Origin: Candidatus Bathyarchaeota archaeon | GTDB taxonomy: Archaea; Thermoproteota; Bathyarchaeia; 40CM-2-53-6 | Length of the DNA stretch: 18,073 bases | Direction: 5' to 3' | Assembly: GCA_005888755.1 (NCBI GenBank) | Contig: VBBQ01000003.1 | Coordinates: 4,935-23,007, forward strand | Part shown: positions 1,023 through 14,797 of the stretch, one piece after another | How the letters are laid out: each line of letters begins with the position of its first letter | How positions within the stretch are numbered: position 1 is the stretch's first letter | The notes under the pieces: generated by a model | Told to the model about the DNA's origin: nothing | Database searches by the model: none | What the model saw: only the letters and a program-made list of their open reading frames with translations | Position numbers and translations under genes: made by a program

Positions 1023-1424
1023 TCAGAACCATTTGGTTCTAATGCCAAGGGTCTTGTAGTGTGGATCGTCCGTGACTACGTAGTCGGCCTCGCCCAGCTT
1101 GACCGGAGAGGCAATTAGCGCGTCAGCGATAGGAATCTCTTGATGTCTGAGTAGAAGGCTTCCCGCGGACAAGGCCATTTCCTCGCTGAGCGTTAGTATG
1201 TGTAGGCCTCTTTCTTTGAGGAGTCTCAGCCTTAGACGAGCGGTCGCTTCGCCGATTCTTACCCCGGCGATCTTCAGGAATTCCGTTAGGACGATTGTTG
1301 GAGCTAGAAGCCTATGTGTCAGCTCATGCGCCATAGCGGCTTCGACCTCTCTCTTGGTGTCCTTGTCTGGGGGAAATTCGAGTGTGAGCAGGAGCCGTGT
1401 GTCAGCTATGGCGGTCAACGCCAC
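1023..1424 (-). CDS. vapC: VapC-type PIN-domain ribonuclease toxin
   Basis: 133 residues, the usual length of a VapC toxin. PIN domains are Mg-dependent RNases with a cluster of acidic residues. Here these are D8 in the first strand (IADTRLLL), E48 (TIVLTEFLKI), D101 (IPIADALIAS) and D119/D120 (YVVTDDPHY), in the expected order. The start is GTG at 1424, which overlaps the end of the antitoxin gene by 10 bases (antitoxin stop TGA at 1415-1417), so the two are probably translationally coupled. The protein is expected to be cytosolic and held inactive by its partner. The substrate RNA cannot be told from the sequence. The frame is intact and all acidic residues are present, so the toxin looks active. 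Confidence 0.88.
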   Translation of the reverse strand: MALTAIADTRLLLTLEFPPDKDTKREVEAAMAHELTHRLLAPTIVLTEFLKIAGVRIGEATARLRLRLLKERGLHILTLSEEMALSAGSLLLRHQEIPIADALIASPVKLGEADYVVTDDPHYKTLGIRTKWF

Positions 1425-2002: not shown

Positions 2003-2416
2003 CTAGAATTGCTCGAGTATTCGCTTCAGGTTCTGGGTTGAATGTTGAGCCGTTTTCCGTATGTTCCTCTTGATCGTGATTAGATCCATGATCCTACCAA
2101 GGATTGAGTAAGGCGGCCTATACTCCACTTCCAAAGAGTAGCGCGTGCCATCCCCCTCCTTCTTGACACGATTCGCAGCTTTCATTCTCATTGCTTCAGG
2201 TGTGCCGGAAATCGCTTGCCAAACGACAGAGTCGTTTTCCGCCCATTCTATGACTCTTCCATCCCATTCCATTTTTCTGCCCATAACTTGACCCGAGTGG
2301 TGTGCGGAAGCGCCCACTCCAGTCTTCTCCTTTGAAGTGTATCTAGCGCTAGAAACGAAGTCGAGCCAATCATTGCAAATGTCATGTTGAGTAATACGGC
2401 TAAACACCTTTTCCAC
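2003..2416 (-). CDS. SRPBCC (START-like) domain protein, N-terminus uncertain
   Basis: About 137 residues from a GTG at 2416. The pattern fits the SRPBCC/polyketide-cyclase fold: EKVFSRITQ at the start, then MEWDGRVIEWAENDSVVWQAI with the alternating strands of the sheet, then TRYSLEVEYRPPYSILGRI and a long C-terminal helix ending LKRILEQF. Members bind small hydrophobic ligands, and the ligand here is not predictable. The usual first strand is encoded just upstream in the same frame (TTKVGSSVFIDAPVEKVF) but has no ATG, GTG or TTG before the stop at about 2500. So either a rare start is used, the start was lost, or the GTG at 2416 gives a shortened protein. It lies on the same strand as, and downstream of, a possible winged-helix ORF. 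Confidence 0.7.
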   Translation of the reverse strand: MEKVFSRITQHDICNDWLDFVSSARYTSKEKTGVGASAHHSGQVMGRKMEWDGRVIEWAENDSVVWQAISGTPEAMRMKAANRVKKEGDGTRYSLEVEYRPPYSILGRIMDLITIKRNIRKTAQHSTQNLKRILEQF

Positions 2417-2832: not shown

Positions 2833-4617
2833 TCAGTCTCTCACTGAAACGAACTGTCCTACAAGCTCTTCTCTCACTGTCTTAGTCCTTTCCCAGAACT
2901 CCTTGTTCTCAGGGTCTCCAGCGTTGAACAAGTGATCATACTTCACCCTATCCTCTCCTTGGGGTAGCCGTTGGACGGCCTGGTTTGTAAATTCCCTGAA
3001 TTGACGCGGGTTTGAGAGGCGAGGAGTTATACAAACATAGTAAACCGCGAGTTTTTCCACTTCGTTGACCGGATGGGCCCGTTTTTTCCCGGCCTGTCTG
3101 AATTGGCCGAGTCCTAGGACGAACTTGTCGCCTTGGCTGAGGGTAGGGATCACAAACTCGTTCCCCGAAGGGATACGGCTGAGAAGATCAGGCCCTTTCG
3201 GGCGCGTCATGATACGCTGCTTCATCTCCTGCATTTCAGAGGTGGAACTTCCAGCTAGGACAAAAGAGACTCTGCCACCTCCACCACGTTCGAGACCGGG
3301 AAGAAGGGCCTCGTAGGGCCATGACTGTCCCGGTTTGGCGTCGACCTCGTCAACCAGGCATAACGAAGATTGCCTAATCGAACTAAGTTGGTCAAGTTTG
3401 GACCTGAACTCGTTCTCGCTCAATTGTGCAAGGTTCAATTCTTCGTAAGAAACAGTATCCTTCAACGAGTTGGCAAGCTCCTGTACAAAGTAGGTCTTTC
3501 CGCTTCCAGGCGGAGCCCATACCAGATAATTCTCTCCATTCGATGGAGATTTTAGGCCCATGATTATTTTCTGTTTCCAGTCTTTCAGAGAATTTCGGAC
3601 CTCCGCCTGGTATCGCAGATAGTTGCCGACGACACTGAATCTCGCAAGAGCAATCTCGTCCGTCTGAACAATCAGTTTTTTCGTCTCGGACAGCTCGTGT
3701 TCAGGGAGGCGATCGGTAATGACTTGCTTCGTGAATACTTGATCTTGTGGTGAGACGCCTTGGAACTGTCTGATTTCACGCAGGAAAATTGGCCAGGCTG
3801 GCTCGTTTTCGAGAAGGATGTGGTTCCTTCCTTCAAAGGGTACAAACCTGGCTCCTCGGATTTGCGTGGCCAACAATCTTCCCTGATCGAAGGGAACAAT
3901 CGCATCCTCGCGAGCGTGAAGGATCAGTGTGGGCACGTCAATCTCTTCGAGTAAGTCGGTTACGTCGATGTTGCTATTCACATCGTCAAATTTCAGTGCA
4001 TTCTGAGGTGGACAAGATACGCGTTGAAGTTCGTTGAACCATCTCATCTGCTCGGGTCCGGCGTCTGGTATGAACAGCGAAGTGAACAGTTGTCTGAAAG
4101 CAGGATTGTCCTGGCCCCAGCCGAGCTCCATTAGTTTGTGCATTAGTCTCCGTTTCTCACCTAGTTCTTTGTCTTCCTGAGTCCGCTCACGCTTTGCATA
4201 ACCTAGCGCGTAAGTGCCGTAGAGTACTAGTTTGTCCACTCGACCAGGATGGCGCGCTGCATATGCAATGCTTACTGGGCCACCCTGTGACACGCCCAGT
4301 AACGTGAACTTGTTAAGGTTAAGTGAATCCACAACCGTTTCTAGGTCGCTAACCCAAGCCTCGAACGTGAAATCAGACACATTCCAGTCTGAGAGTCCAC
4401 AGCCGCGCTCGTCATACCGAATGTAGTGATTGTATCTCGAGAGTTCTCTAATCCAATGGTACCATACCGGACTCTCGACGTCAAACTGTAAATGACTCAG
4501 ATAATGGGCAGCCCTCACGACAGGCGGACCCACTCCAGTCGTGGCGAAAGCTATTCGAGTGCCGTCTTGAGCCTTGCAGAAGCGAATTCTCTGCCCGTGC
4601 TGGTCTTGCACTTGCAT
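2833..4617 (-). CDS. Alpha/beta hydrolase fused to an AAA+ ATPase
   Basis: 594 residues, ATG at 4617. Residues about 10-285 are an alpha/beta hydrolase of the type otherwise found fused to adenylate cyclases or LuxR regulators (RIAFATTGVGPP; YIRYDERGCGLSD). A full catalytic triad is visible: S110 in GVSQGG, D238 in HAREDAIVP, H266 in GRNHILL. After a linker (about 290-325), residues about 326-560 form an AAA+ module. Its Walker A is APPGSGKT (368-375), Walker B is LCLVDEVD (D423/E424), sensor-1 region is FVLAGSS (453-458), a probable arginine finger is R481 in LLSRIP, and a lid contains NPRQFREF. No membrane segment or signal peptide. The hydrolase half could be an enzyme or a ligand sensor driving the ATPase; the substrate is unknown. 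I know of no characterised protein with this layout. It is preceded by a TATA-like box. Confidence 0.85.
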   Translation of the reverse strand: MQVQDQHGQRIRFCKAQDGTRIAFATTGVGPPVVRAAHYLSHLQFDVESPVWYHWIRELSRYNHYIRYDERGCGLSDWNVSDFTFEAWVSDLETVVDSLNLNKFTLLGVSQGGPVSIAYAARHPGRVDKLVLYGTYALGYAKRERTQEDKELGEKRRLMHKLMELGWGQDNPAFRQLFTSLFIPDAGPEQMRWFNELQRVSCPPQNALKFDDVNSNIDVTDLLEEIDVPTLILHAREDAIVPFDQGRLLATQIRGARFVPFEGRNHILLENEPAWPIFLREIRQFQGVSPQDQVFTKQVITDRLPEHELSETKKLIVQTDEIALARFSVVGNYLRYQAEVRNSLKDWKQKIIMGLKSPSNGENYLVWAPPGSGKTYFVQELANSLKDTVSYEELNLAQLSENEFRSKLDQLSSIRQSSLCLVDEVDAKPGQSWPYEALLPGLERGGGGRVSFVLAGSSTSEMQEMKQRIMTRPKGPDLLSRIPSGNEFVIPTLSQGDKFVLGLGQFRQAGKKRAHPVNEVEKLAVYYVCITPRLSNPRQFREFTNQAVQRLPQGEDRVKYDHLFNAGDPENKEFWERTKTVREELVGQFVSVRD

Positions 4618-5392: not shown

Positions 5393-6391
5393 CTAGGGGA
5401 ACTTCGGGGAGAGTGCTCCGGCTGGGCATGCGTCAATGCATGCCATGCAAAGGATGCATTCCGAGTCGTTGAACTTTTTCCAGTCCAAGTCCAGGATCGG
5501 AATCTGCATTGGACATGCGGTTTCGCATTCTTTGCAGCTTGAACACTTGATAGGGTCACGGTGCATTCCTAGCAAGCTGTTTTTCTGGAAGACTGCCATT
5601 ATGCCTCCGACCGGGCAGATGTAGCGGCACCAGAATCGTGGGATTCGCCACGCTGCGTAGATGAATCCTATGAGGATCAGAATATTGATCCACGTAAGCG
5701 CTGAGACACCTCCAAGCCAGGAGCCAATGTTGGCTGCGGACAGATCGGAGGCTTGAGCGGTTGCCAAGAACCTCCACGAGTGTGCCAGTAATAGAGGTAG
5801 AGTTCCGAAAAGGGTGCCGTCGGGGGTTATTGCGATGAAGACCCCTGGAGCAAAGTCTCCAAGACTCTGTTTGTAGTCGGCTCCGACCCCGTAGTACAGT
5901 GCGAGCGCTAGAGTCCCGCTCATCAAGAAGACGATTCCTACGAGAACATACTTCAACCGGATCCAGTACTCGTGGCGGCGAGTCTGGACGAAGTCGACTC
6001 TCCCTTTGATACTCGTAATAACGTCTTGAAGAAAACCGACTGGGCAAATCCAGCCGCACATGAATCTCCCTAGGAGGGCGCCAACTACGAACATAATCCC
6101 AATGGGCAGCCATGGAAAGATTGCCTCGGACATAAGAAGTGTAGAAGCGTCTAAGGTTGAACCTATCGCACCTTGTGCCTTAACACTGACAACTACTGGA
6201 AGTACGACCCAGGATCTTGCGAGGTTGAACGCCGGAATTAGGCGAGCGAGTGCGATACCTGCGAACAGGAGAAAGAATCCGAGCTGCACGAGGGTCCTAA
6301 TCGGCCAATAGTAAATTCTCCCCTGTCGCAAGCCTTGCCATGCTCGTTTGGCAATGCCGACTTTCGGTTCGCTTGTCACAACAGGTTCCAT
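5393..6391 (-). CDS. NapH/CcoG-like polyferredoxin membrane protein
   Basis: 332 residues, ATG at 6391. Several membrane helices (about 33-53, 93-110, 148-168, 234-248) alternate with two CxxxCP motifs typical of NapH/NosR/CcoG-type proteins: C112-GWI-C116-PVG and C255-RYI-C259-PVG. The C-terminus holds two 4Fe-4S clusters: C283xxC286xxC289xxxC293P and C312xxC315xxC318xxxC322P. Such proteins carry electrons between the quinol pool and soluble or periplasmic partners, or help copper and oxidase assembly; which one applies here is open. It follows a 41-residue membrane peptide gene by 12 bases and is divergent from the Rieske-cytochrome b cluster, which suggests a shared respiratory role. Confidence 0.82.
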   Translation of the reverse strand: MEPVVTSEPKVGIAKRAWQGLRQGRIYYWPIRTLVQLGFFLLFAGIALARLIPAFNLARSWVVLPVVVSVKAQGAIGSTLDASTLLMSEAIFPWLPIGIMFVVGALLGRFMCGWICPVGFLQDVITSIKGRVDFVQTRRHEYWIRLKYVLVGIVFLMSGTLALALYYGVGADYKQSLGDFAPGVFIAITPDGTLFGTLPLLLAHSWRFLATAQASDLSAANIGSWLGGVSALTWINILILIGFIYAAWRIPRFWCRYICPVGGIMAVFQKNSLLGMHRDPIKCSSCKECETACPMQIPILDLDWKKFNDSECILCMACIDACPAGALSPKFP

Positions 6392-6649: not shown

Positions 6650-6700
6650 CGTGGAAACGGACCGAGCGAAAATTATTCTTGAGTACTGGAGGAATTGTCC

Positions 6701-7426
6701 ATGGACGATAAGAAGCCTAGTACGTCCACGAACTCCCCTCCTCCGTCGACACAACCAGCCGCTTCCCAGCCACCCAATCCCGCCCCGCTCGCAAAGAGCC
6801 CTCTCATATCGCGACGAAGATTTCTCCAAGGAGCCCTAGCCGCATCCGCGGTTTTGGCTGCTGCCTCCGTCGGTGCATCAGGCCAAATTCTAGGCCCTCT
6901 TATTCCGCCGCGTCTACCCTCGCAGACCCTGATCGGTACTGATACGACAACGCTGGAATCTGGATACGACGGTGCCGTTGCTGCAGGGACCCTTTACACT
7001 GACCTACTCAGCGGGAAGGTGCCTTCATGGACGCACTTCTTCTATTGGCCTTTCGACTCTACCGTGAGCCCGTATTACAAGAACGTCGTATGTCGACTTC
7101 CCGACCCCGTTCAACTCACGTCAATGTCGAACGCCTTTACTGCGCCAGATGGGACCAAGTTCGTGGCCTACAACGTCACGTGCGTACACCTCAGATGTCT
7201 AGTCAACCCTGGATACGCAGGTCCCGCCGAAGCCGGCGAATTCAGGCTACAATGTCCCTGTCATGGAAGCCAGTACAGGATCAGCGATGGAGTACCTGTC
7301 GCGGGGCCAGCGTTCGACTTAGGACTTCTTCCACTACCGCAGATAACACTAGGAGTAGATTCGACAGGGAAACAGCTAGTTGCAATTGCAATAAACGGAG
7401 AGCCCGGCGTTGGCCGCACCCAGTAG
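6701..7426 (+). CDS. Rieske iron-sulfur protein with Tat signal
   Basis: 241 residues from ATG 6701, which lies 8 bases after GGAGG; an in-frame TTG at 6695 is too close to that site. A long Pro/Ser-rich N-terminus precedes a twin-arginine signal, S37-R-R-R-F-L-Q, and a hydrophobic segment to about 60, so the protein is exported folded and probably stays anchored. Rieske box 1 is C161-V-H163-L-R-C166 and box 2 is C185-P-C187-H188-G-S190. C161, H163, C185 and H188 bind the 2Fe-2S cluster and C166/C187 form the disulfide. Box 1 has R165 where most have Gly. Together with the next gene it forms the quinol-oxidising core of a cytochrome bc-type complex. Confidence 0.93.
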   Translation: MDDKKPSTSTNSPPPSTQPAASQPPNPAPLAKSPLISRRRFLQGALAASAVLAAASVGASGQILGPLIPPRLPSQTLIGTDTTTLESGYDGAVAAGTLYTDLLSGKVPSWTHFFYWPFDSTVSPYYKNVVCRLPDPVQLTSMSNAFTAPDGTKFVAYNVTCVHLRCLVNPGYAGPAEAGEFRLQCPCHGSQYRISDGVPVAGPAFDLGLLPLPQITLGVDSTGKQLVAIAINGEPGVGRTQ

Positions 7427-8840
7427 TAAGAAGAAAGGGGTCCTCGACCCCATCATCGCTCTCCTCAAGTGGACTTGGGAGAGACTGGAACGTACTCTCC
7501 TCCTCGGACTAAAGATAGTCTTTCCCTCGCGATTCATCAGCCCGATGGGCTTTCTAGGAATGCTGACGCTCATAGTCTTCATCATCCTAGGCGTCACAGG
7601 GGCACTACTTCTGTTTCACTTTACTCCCTTCTTTGGTAGTTGTCCGCCAGCGCCTGCAAACGTGACCTATATCCCCACAGCTACATGCAATCAAGCTTAC
7701 AACAGCGTACAATCCATAAACAACAATGTGGCCTGGGGATCGATCATCCGAAACATCCACTACCACGCCTCCAACGCAATGGTACTCCTAGCGGTAATGC
7801 ACATGTTCTACCAGTATTTTGGCGGACGATACAAGCTCCGATACGAGATCCTCTGGGTCACAGGAATTATCCTCGGCGTTGTCACCGTGATCGAAGCATA
7901 CACCGGTTACGACCTAATCTTCAACATTCGAGGACAATTAGCCATCAATATTGGACAGACCCTCACATTTTACAGTCCAGTGATTGGTGCTGACCTTGCA
8001 CGGATAATATTCGGGTTCAGCTTCAACGATCTCGCCATCAGATTCTATGCCTTCCACGTCTTCATCATACCAATAATAATGCTGGCAATAATGGCAGTCC
8101 ACCTTCCAAGGAACCTTGTTCTAGACATACCGGTCGCCTCGGCCATAACAGGGATCATTCTGATCATGGGCGGACTCTTCCCCGTGGATGTGGGGGTGAA
8201 ATACGATCCCAACGTGGAGACCCAAATCACATTCCCGGAATGGTACTTCACAAGTCTTTACGCTTTCATCAGGGTTAGGGGACTCGCTCCCCTCATAGCG
8301 GGAGCTATAATCCCAACAATATTCATACTAATCTTCACAGTGGCCCCGTTCTTTGACCGTGGAAGGAAAATCGCAATGATTGACCGTCCTTTCTGGGTTG
8401 CGCTCGGCGTGGCCTCTCTAGGACAAATCGCGATAGTGACTGTTTGGGGATTCCGAGCCGCAGACCCGCTCGTCGCACTTACGGGCCCTGGACAATTAGT
8501 GATTGACCCAACCCTCTTCTTCGGATCACTGTTACTGGCTATCGCGTTGGGCTACGGCTTTGTCTACGCATATGTTAGATGGAGACGCGGCAAGATAGAT
8601 GCACTTCGCGCAGCTAGAAAACCAATACCATTTCGAAGGCTACAGCCCTACATGTTCTCCAAGAGCGAAGTCTATTCGTTACTAGGCGGCCTGCTGCTTT
8701 TGCAGGCTTTCCTAGATGTTTCGATATTTCGAGCGCTCGTAGAGAATCTCAATAATTTTGTCCTCCTCGAAATCGGGATGGTCTTGGTCGCCTTCGCTGC
8801 TGCGGTTCATATATACAGGATATCCAGTCAAGCGAAGTGA
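7410..8840 (+). CDS. Cytochrome b of a bc1/b6f-type complex
   Basis: 476 residues from TTG at 7410, overlapping the Rieske gene by 17 bases, so the two are coupled. About ten membrane helices. The four heme-binding histidines are H117 and H131 (14 apart) and H216 and H231 (15 apart). A 14/15 pattern is that of cytochrome b6, whereas mitochondrial-type cytochrome b has 14/14. The quinol-site motif PEWY is at residues 276-279. Quinol oxidation passes electrons to the Rieske protein and to the two b hemes. Two or three further C-terminal helices (about 368-470) resemble the subunit IV part and extra helices of archaeal forms. No cytochrome c1 or f gene is in the cluster, so the acceptor may be the cupredoxin that follows. 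Confidence 0.93.
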   Translation: MAAPSSKKKGVLDPIIALLKWTWERLERTLLLGLKIVFPSRFISPMGFLGMLTLIVFIILGVTGALLLFHFTPFFGSCPPAPANVTYIPTATCNQAYNSVQSINNNVAWGSIIRNIHYHASNAMVLLAVMHMFYQYFGGRYKLRYEILWVTGIILGVVTVIEAYTGYDLIFNIRGQLAINIGQTLTFYSPVIGADLARIIFGFSFNDLAIRFYAFHVFIIPIIMLAIMAVHLPRNLVLDIPVASAITGIILIMGGLFPVDVGVKYDPNVETQITFPEWYFTSLYAFIRVRGLAPLIAGAIIPTIFILIFTVAPFFDRGRKIAMIDRPFWVALGVASLGQIAIVTVWGFRAADPLVALTGPGQLVIDPTLFFGSLLLAIALGYGFVYAYVRWRRGKIDALRAARKPIPFRRLQPYMFSKSEVYSLLGGLLLLQAFLDVSIFRALVENLNNFVLLEIGMVLVAFAAAVHIYRISSQAK

Positions 8841-8847
8841 TTGATGA

Positions 8848-9423
8848 ATGCAGGTCCCCAAGAGACATCTCCCCGTCGTTGGTCTCTTAGGCTTGATAGT
8901 GATCGCCGCTGCTGGGGGGACAGTTTACTACTATCAGTTCCTGACCCCGCACCAGTCTACGCACGGACCTCCATCTCACAGGCTCATCTTCATGACAGCA
9001 ATTGTAGAAGAAGAGGGCGGCTTCAAGTTCTATGACACAGCATATCTTAACCAGACCTCTCTACCGGCGTTCAACGCAACTGCCGGACCCAGCTTTGCCG
9101 GATTGAAATACCAGAATTACAAACCGAGCTCAACCGACAATCGGACAATCGATGCAAACGTGGGGGATTCAATCACGTTCTATATTAAGGGCGTGAACGC
9201 TACTCATACCGCGCCGCTCTTTTCTAATCATCATGGATTCACGATCGATATAATGCCCCAGCCCGTAACAGTTACGGATGGCCAACTAGGCGGCAACATT
9301 TTCTTCAACTCGTGGTACACCGTAACATTCACTGTAAACGCTGCTGGGCTGTATGAATACAGGTGTACCGTCTTCTGCAGCAACGGTCATACTCAGATGT
9401 ACGGGAACATCATCGTGACATAA
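8848..9423 (+). CDS. CuA-type cupredoxin, cytochrome oxidase subunit II-like
   Basis: 191 residues, ATG 8848, 7 bases after cytochrome b. One N-terminal membrane helix (about 9-30) anchors a cupredoxin domain outside the membrane. The C-terminal motif C173-TVF-C177-SNG-H181-TQ-M184 has the CuA spacing CxxxCxxxHxxM, and H128/H129 in NHHGFTI supplies the other histidine. The usual Glu between the cysteines (CxExC), which acts through its backbone, is Val175. No two-helix N-terminus as in classical subunit II and no subunit I gene is in the window. It could be an oxidase subunit, or an electron shuttle from the Rieske-cytochrome b complex. Confidence 0.87.
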   Translation: MQVPKRHLPVVGLLGLIVIAAAGGTVYYYQFLTPHQSTHGPPSHRLIFMTAIVEEEGGFKFYDTAYLNQTSLPAFNATAGPSFAGLKYQNYKPSSTDNRTIDANVGDSITFYIKGVNATHTAPLFSNHHGFTIDIMPQPVTVTDGQLGGNIFFNSWYTVTFTVNAAGLYEYRCTVFCSNGHTQMYGNIIVT

Positions 9424-13846: not shown

Positions 13847-14797
13847 ATGAGTTCACCCGCCAAAACCGCCATCCTGAGGGCCATTCTTCCTAACGACAAT
13901 TCGGCGAAGGATGCATTGGTGCTTGGAACACCTGCCAAGACTGAATCGCAAAGTGTCATACTGACTTCTGGAAACATGACAACGGAAGCAATTGTGGGTC
14001 ACATCAAGGAGCTCTCGAAGCTACGAGATGAGATCCTCCAAGTCATGCGGCAACTCAACCTCACAAGGGAAGGGAGCCCGAGTCCAGTCAAACAGTTAGA
14101 CTACGATAACGAACTGGAATCAGCGAGACGAGAGCTGGACGAGATGAGGAACCAGTACCAGGAGGCCCAAAGAAGGATCGAAGATGTTCAGAGACAACTC
14201 GACGATTCCAAGAAGCGGGTCGCAGTCGTCACCGAGATATCTCAGACTGGTTTTGCGGCCGACCAGTTGGAATCTGAGGCTGGAGACTTCCGGAGAATCT
14301 TGGGAAGATTGCCTGTCAAGAAACTGGAGGCTGCGCAGAGAGCAATGGTCTCACAATTCAAGGACCAAGCAATCCTGGCTATCGGCAACAAGAAACAGGA
14401 CATGTTCTACATCCTCATCGCAGCGCCGAAGGACAAGTCTTCCCAGGCGCTTCAAACGCTCCTCCTATACGACTTCGCCCCTATAGAGATTCCAGAATAC
14501 AAATCGCCGGATATCAAATCAGAAATTCAGAGAGAAGAAGATAGAGCTAGGGCGCTCGCCAAGGCGCTCGGCGAGTTGGAACCGCAGGTAGATGATTTGC
14601 GCAGGAAGGCTGGACAGACGCTGAACAGGAGACTCGACGAAGTCGTTGATACTCTGATGCTGCTCCGCGGAATCCTCAAACTAGGCGAAGGAACTCAGGC
14701 CTCCCGTGTCTACGCTAGACTGGAAAGAGTCCTTCCAGCGGAGACCATAACAAACCTGTCCAAGAGAGGCATCATCGAACTGGAGTCTTCCTCGTAG
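13847..14797 (+). CDS. Soluble coiled-coil protein resembling the cytosolic arm of A-ATPase subunit I
   Basis: 316 residues, ATG 21 bases after hppA. No membrane segment. Residues about 50-128 and 222-285 are charged coiled coils. Between them, about 145-217 (GRLPVKKLEAAQRAM ... ILAIGNKKQDMFYILIAAPK ... LLLYDFAPIEIPE) is an alpha/beta unit like the lobe of the N-terminal half of A/V-ATPase subunit I, which links peripheral stalks to the membrane part. The family resemblance is from pattern, not a confirmed match. True atpI lies on the other strand at 17021 onward and, judged by its reading frame, has its own N-terminal part beyond the window. This would therefore be a separate, membrane-free relative. 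Another possibility is an unrelated coiled-coil protein. Confidence 0.55.
   Translation: MSSPAKTAILRAILPNDNSAKDALVLGTPAKTESQSVILTSGNMTTEAIVGHIKELSKLRDEILQVMRQLNLTREGSPSPVKQLDYDNELESARRELDEMRNQYQEAQRRIEDVQRQLDDSKKRVAVVTEISQTGFAADQLESEAGDFRRILGRLPVKKLEAAQRAMVSQFKDQAILAIGNKKQDMFYILIAAPKDKSSQALQTLLLYDFAPIEIPEYKSPDIKSEIQREEDRARALAKALGELEPQVDDLRRKAGQTLNRRLDEVVDTLMLLRGILKLGEGTQASRVYARLERVLPAETITNLSKRGIIELESSS

Follow-up and report, generated by a model that had tools for sequence, protein, structure and literature searches.

What is the role of an archaeal protein that joins an alpha/beta hydrolase to an AAA+ ATPase in one chain? The gene that raises this question lies in a window of 18,073 nucleotides (the whole stretch of DNA analysed) from a Candidatus Bathyarchaeota contig, at 2833..4617 on the minus strand, and encodes 594 amino acids plus a stop codon from an ATG start. 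A sequence-only reading of the window had described an intact 594-residue open reading frame (ORF), which holds, and to this we add the strand it had left out: the plus strand over 2833..4617 contains many stops and is not open, while the minus-strand ORF is intact.

The N-terminal half is an alpha/beta hydrolase by both fold and catalytic triad. The domain spans residues 9–288 (3754..4593, minus strand), as delimited by Pfam, a structure model and PDB matches, and is recognized by Pfam Abhydrolase_1 (E = 6e-19, residues 50–273). In the model, helices 147–166, 172–182, 188–201 and 204–215 form a helical lid. The catalytic residues are Ser110 in the SQGG elbow (GVSQGG, 4288..4290), Asp238 (HAREDAIVPF, 3904..3906) and His266 (GRNHILL, 3820..3822), all on the minus strand. 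Ser110 and His266 are kept in 29/29 aligned homologues, and Asp238 in 28, with Glu in the remaining one (L011); the complete triad previously read from the sequence is thus confirmed residue by residue and is conserved across homologues. The closest structural matches are esterases and haloperoxidases, led by an Exiguobacterium esterase (5h3h, Z 30.4 over 263 residues at 2.3 Å), and further matches include rice D14 (5dj5, Z 27.4) and RsbQ (1wom, Z 27.1). In NCBIfam the hydrolase half comes closest to the LipJ lipase/adenylate cyclase model NF058673 (residues 6–302, E 8e-25), with a score of 87 bits against a cut-off of 800; as the fusion protein also carries no cyclase domain, it does not qualify as a LipJ.

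A disordered linker of variable sequence and length (residues 291–302, 3712..3747, minus strand; pLDDT <50) leads into the C-terminal half, which is a true AAA+ ATPase. By model, PDB matches and alignment, this domain covers residues 308–594 (2836..3696, minus strand) and includes an N-terminal helix and a C-terminal lid. Both nucleotide-binding motifs, on the minus strand, were found where the sequence-only reading had placed a complete Walker A/B site: Walker A is APPGSGKT (residues 368–375, 3493..3516), with P370, G371, G373 and K374 invariant in 19 aligned rows, and Walker B is LCLVDE (residues 419–424, 3346..3363), with D423 and E424 invariant in the same rows. Two further arginines, invariant in all 19 rows, are assigned candidate roles from their positions, both on the minus strand: Arg481 (DLLSRIP, 3175..3177) is a candidate Arg finger, placed in the model at the end of helix 475–480 and before strand 487–489 (strand 5), and Arg538 (3004..3006), in lid helix 537–549, is a candidate sensor 2.

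Pfam fits this half with generic AAA models only (AAA: E = 5e-6, 27.3 bits against a cut-off of 21.2, residues 365–447), and none of the 25 NCBIfam matches listed is an AAA model. The sequence-only reading had allowed that this half might lack homologues and fail to fold as AAA+; modelled separately (308–594 plus a few flanking residues), it folds as AAA+ with a lid at high confidence (pLDDT 91.9, pTM 0.87) and matches NtrC1 (1ny5, Z 16.5) and FtsH, p97, MgsA, ClpC and ClpX (Z ~15). The whole-protein model has pLDDT 86.6 and pTM 0.51, so that the geometry between the domains is not confidently predicted. What sets the family apart is a C-terminal signature, KYDHLFNAGDPENKEFW (residues 559–575, 2893..2943, minus strand), drawn from the alignment of 19 AAA rows and lying largely at or past the end of the best PDB alignments. 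Most positions of the tail R-x-K-Y-D-H-L-F-x-x-G-D-P-E-N-K-E-F-W vary little or not at all across the 19 AAA domains, and R557, D561, L563, F564, G567, D568, K572, F574 and W575 are identical in 19/19. Pfam matches of the fusion protein comprise the hydrolase and AAA only, with neither a DNA-binding nor a protease domain, and they contain no STAND-type NTPase signature; some relatives match nSTAND_NTPase5 below cut-off. Conservation of R481 and R538 disfavours membership of the STAND NTPases.

The fusion recurs. We found 11 full-length hydrolase-AAA copies at 43–98% identity, distributed over the source genome and its near relative BA_21 (a soil MAG of Candidatus Bathyarchaeota whose copy is 98% identical), three Thermoplasmata MAGs (54–55%), a Euryarchaeota-labelled MAG (53%), a Dormibacterota MAG (52%), two Dehalococcoidia MAGs (43–44%) and, for two further copies, genomes of the Thermoplasmata class search. 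The two Dehalococcoidia copies adjoin rpsB/tsf/pyrH-type housekeeping genes and are therefore regarded as truly bacterial. Between the source genome and BA_21 the gene differs by 8, 4 and 27 changes at codon positions 1, 2 and 3, with dN/dS of 0.16 overall, 0.16 in the hydrolase and 0.12 in the AAA part, ratios that indicate purifying selection on both halves. A chance ORF or an assembly chimera is ruled out by the recurrence in several phyla and the dN/dS of 0.16. The AAA family as a whole has a patchy distribution, as horizontal transfer would predict: in samples that take in the genomes at the centre of the searches, it is present in 16/300 Thermoplasmata-class, 1/400 Chloroflexota and 3/296 Actinomycetota genomes, and in 1/300 genomes of the class to which a Nitrososphaerales MAG with several copies belongs. 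In a sister genus (L038; L025:780-1086), the fusion gene survives as a decayed remnant: only the last 100 residues are left, at 76–94% identity, and they are interrupted by a stop and a change of frame.

Each half also occurs with other partners. The sequence-only reading had assigned the hydrolase to a class usually fused to adenylate cyclase or LuxR domains, and its clade bears this out with LuxR and winged-helix outputs: hydrolases of the same clade (53–58% identity) carry a Trans_reg_C winged helix in L013 and L091 and a LuxR GerE domain in L014 and L092. In the same archaeal genus, a more distantly related hydrolase (L037) has Guanylate_cyc as its fusion partner. The clade also has members that stand alone: the source genome's own 309-aa paralogue and eight relatives. 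The AAA family, in turn, is joined to FlgO/TolB_N plus TPR at three loci (L016, L018, L026) and to TPR at nine (L015, L017, L020–L022, L035, L076, L080, L087); these segments join it at either end, and a YheO-type PAS domain precedes it at another locus (L023). Among plasmid homologues of the TolB_N/TPR part are some with adenylate/guanylate cyclase or winged-HTH annotations (H32, H35); most plasmid homologues of the PAS part bear a PAS-domain annotation. Going by this module exchange and these plasmid annotations, the partner domains of the AAA family adjoin signalling outputs elsewhere.

Stand-alone AAA-family copies also exist: one in Actinomycetota (L105:1279-2355, 358 aa) is slightly extended at its N terminus and lacks any other known domain, and a similar copy occurs in a second genome (L106). 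The Nitrososphaerales MAG JOPF053 (L016, L018, L026, L045–L073) shows a lineage-specific expansion to nine AAA-family matches, mostly of AAA-TolB_N/FlgO-TPR architecture, two of which lie in tandem on the same contig. An apparent AAA-Peptidase_A4 fusion (L079) was rejected as a partner swap: its AAA half lacks the N-terminal part and has changed conserved sites, and it is followed by low-complexity sequence and then a separate signal/transmembrane-like stretch with the peptidase, so that we took it for a degenerate gene that reads through into the next one and left it out of the count. Tree tests weakly reject a single clade of AAA-fused hydrolases (p-AU 0.022, or 0.040 without the long-branch Dehalococcoidia) and, with L079 left out, a single clade of hydrolase-fused AAA domains (p-AU 0.041); with L079 included, the latter test gave p 3e-30 and was dominated by that sequence. 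As both tests reject a single clade weakly, they weakly suggest more than one fusion event.

No conserved operon partner was found among the loci compared, and the fusion gene stands alone. The genes around it mark the window as archaeal and encode V-type ATPase subunits, a geranylgeranyl reductase, an H+-pyrophosphatase and a Rieske/cytochrome b pair; the fusion gene is adjoined by genes for an iron-sulfur membrane protein and an SRPBCC-like protein. The latter, an SRPBCC/polyketide-cyclase-like protein (2003-2416, minus strand), lies ~400 bp downstream on the same strand; an SRPBCC-like gene is also downstream in L005 and is absent from the ORF lists of the other phyla. A VapC-like PIN-domain protein is encoded nearby (1023-1424, minus strand). 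On the sister contig the PIN gene is a different one and forms a pair with a gene for a MazE/AbrB-type antitoxin (L005:2534-3221). Genes at 6695-9423 (plus strand) and 5393-6391 (minus strand), adjoining that of the 4Fe-4S membrane protein, encode a TAT-signal-like Rieske protein, a cytochrome b/b6-like protein and, with similarity to the CoxB/NosZ end (E 5e-8), a cupredoxin-like protein, together a respiratory cluster in a genome of the Bathyarchaeia, which are mostly described as anaerobic. Further along, a coiled-coil protein (13847-14797, plus strand) is weakly similar to an archaea-specific SMC-related protein (E 3e-7; score 29 bits, cut-off 300).

We think the fusion protein is probably a cytoplasmic one-component signal transducer, in which an oligomeric AAA+ output is under the control of a hydrolase that senses a ligand or uses it up. 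The N-terminal hydrolase would bind, and probably slowly hydrolyse, a small ester- or lactone-like molecule, as D14/KAI2 or RsbQ do. A conformational change would then be relayed via the flexible linker to the C-terminal AAA+ domain, switching its ATP-dependent assembly or its remodelling activity on a partner. Since the Arg-finger candidate is conserved, this domain is most likely a ring-forming ATPase that would oligomerize through R481. Ligand sensing, coupling of the domains and the remodelling output are what we infer from these features; the presence of input and output in one protein, together with the domain exchange, fits one-component transducers. Several observations count in favour: both modules are exchanged with signalling modules, the triad and the full AAA+ site are conserved, RsbQ and D14 are structural neighbours, RsbQ-PAS offers a precedent, and the gene has no conserved operon. 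Against these stand a conserved triad that would fit an ordinary esterase as well, best structural matches among esterases and haloperoxidases, a low-confidence interdomain geometry (pTM 0.51) and the lack of a recognized domain naming the output. Of the earlier proposal of a ligand- or hydrolysis-controlled ATPase in signalling, the ligand-controlled ATPase appears to fit, given the AAA+ fold of the C-terminal half and the different input domains found on its relatives.

The conserved triad raises the alternative that the hydrolase is a working enzyme, such as a metabolic esterase or lactonase whose assembly and gating depend on ATP, with the AAA+ half as its regulator, scaffold or substrate-delivery motor. 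Retention of the triad in all aligned copies save for one Asp-to-Glu change, best PDB matches that are catalytic esterases, and the 309-aa stand-alone paralogue in the same genome and genus are all in keeping with such an enzyme. However, the AAA family also occurs with non-enzyme inputs (TPR/TolB_N, PAS) and so is no partner peculiar to hydrolases, and members of the hydrolase clade are fused to DNA-binding domains as well; we regard a gated enzyme as unlikely. A part in transcription, as a directly controlling AAA+ activator analogous to bacterial enhancer-binding proteins, draws on the sigma54 activator NtrC1 being the top structural match (Z 16.5) and on the AAA domain taking the place of the DNA-binding outputs of related fusions. 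Yet FtsH, p97 and ClpX score within 2 Z units of NtrC1, the sequence has no GAFTGA loop and Pfam recognizes no DNA-binding domain in it, and archaea are not known to have sigma54, which makes this role quite improbable.

A possible role in defence had also been raised. In a defence or cell-suicide protein, the AAA+ domain would sense infection and unleash the hydrolase, for example as a lipase. AAA+ ATPases are generally used for effector thresholding in conflict systems (PMC7159879), but a PADLOC scan of the fusion protein gave only marginal ATPase-motif matches (best E 0.0087) and no weighty system match, and ten scanned neighbours gave no credible defence match. The stable housekeeping neighbourhood of the two Dehalococcoidia copies and the exchange with signalling inputs also weigh against it, and we now consider a defence function very improbable. 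A viral origin was rejected: only ten weak viral matches were obtained, to the P-loop region, and the viral structure library returned generic AAA ATPases.

Beyond this protein, and more tentatively, the AAA+ family could be a general exchangeable output in soil and acidophile archaea and some bacteria, standing in for DNA-binding, cyclase or kinase domains downstream of several sensors that are unrelated to one another (alpha/beta hydrolase, TolB_N/TPR, PAS) and converting small-molecule signals into ATP-driven protein remodelling; we hold this to be plausible, if somewhat short of probable. The recurrence of the fusion across archaea and bacteria suggests an uncharacterized type of sensor-and-switch protein. 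If confirmed, it would offer one chain in which ligand binding, hydrolysis and AAA+ assembly are measurable together, and signalling outputs would then also include the other members of this unnamed AAA+ family, which has up to nine matches in a single Nitrososphaerales MAG. Few archaeal one-component systems with non-DNA-binding outputs are known. The literature searched, which covered few subscription papers, held no account of a hydrolase-AAA+ fusion or of the AAA family's range of inputs, and no characterized protein of the same architecture was found.

Among known systems, NtrC1, FtsH, p97, ClpX and MgsA share with the C-terminal half the AAA+ fold, Walker A/B and the Arg-finger and sensor-2 positions, whereas the fusion differs from them in its low identity (12–19%), its KYDHLF..GDPENKEFW tail and its lack of GAFTGA and of a protease domain. 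Hydrolases are known as sensors in plants (D14/KAI2) and in Bacillus (RsbQ). D14/KAI2 have the same fold and an intact triad, used for perception (Z ~27), but they are plant receptors with 15–19% identity to the fusion hydrolase, and they act with separate partner proteins. RsbQ-RsbP is likewise built on an alpha/beta hydrolase sensor (Z 27.1) with interchangeable outputs: RsbQ-PAS drives phosphatase, histidine kinase or diguanylate cyclase outputs (Nadezhdin 2011, PMC3183031), and the text of that paper makes no mention of AAA. RsbQ, however, is a separate gene acting through a PAS domain, whereas the fusion is one chain, and no RsbP-type PAS protein is encoded beside it, the neighbours being the iron-sulfur membrane protein and the SRPBCC-like protein. 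LipJ (NF058673) resembles the fusion in having a hydrolase as N-terminal input and differs in its output, a class III cyclase. The hydrolase-LuxR (GerE) and hydrolase-Trans_reg_C fusions have a hydrolase of the same clade and with the same triad (53–58% identity for L013 and L014), although their output is DNA binding, through an N-terminal winged helix or a C-terminal LuxR domain, in place of AAA+. Both superfamilies and hydrolase-sensor fusions were thus already known; the AAA+ family as the output had no precedent in the literature searched.
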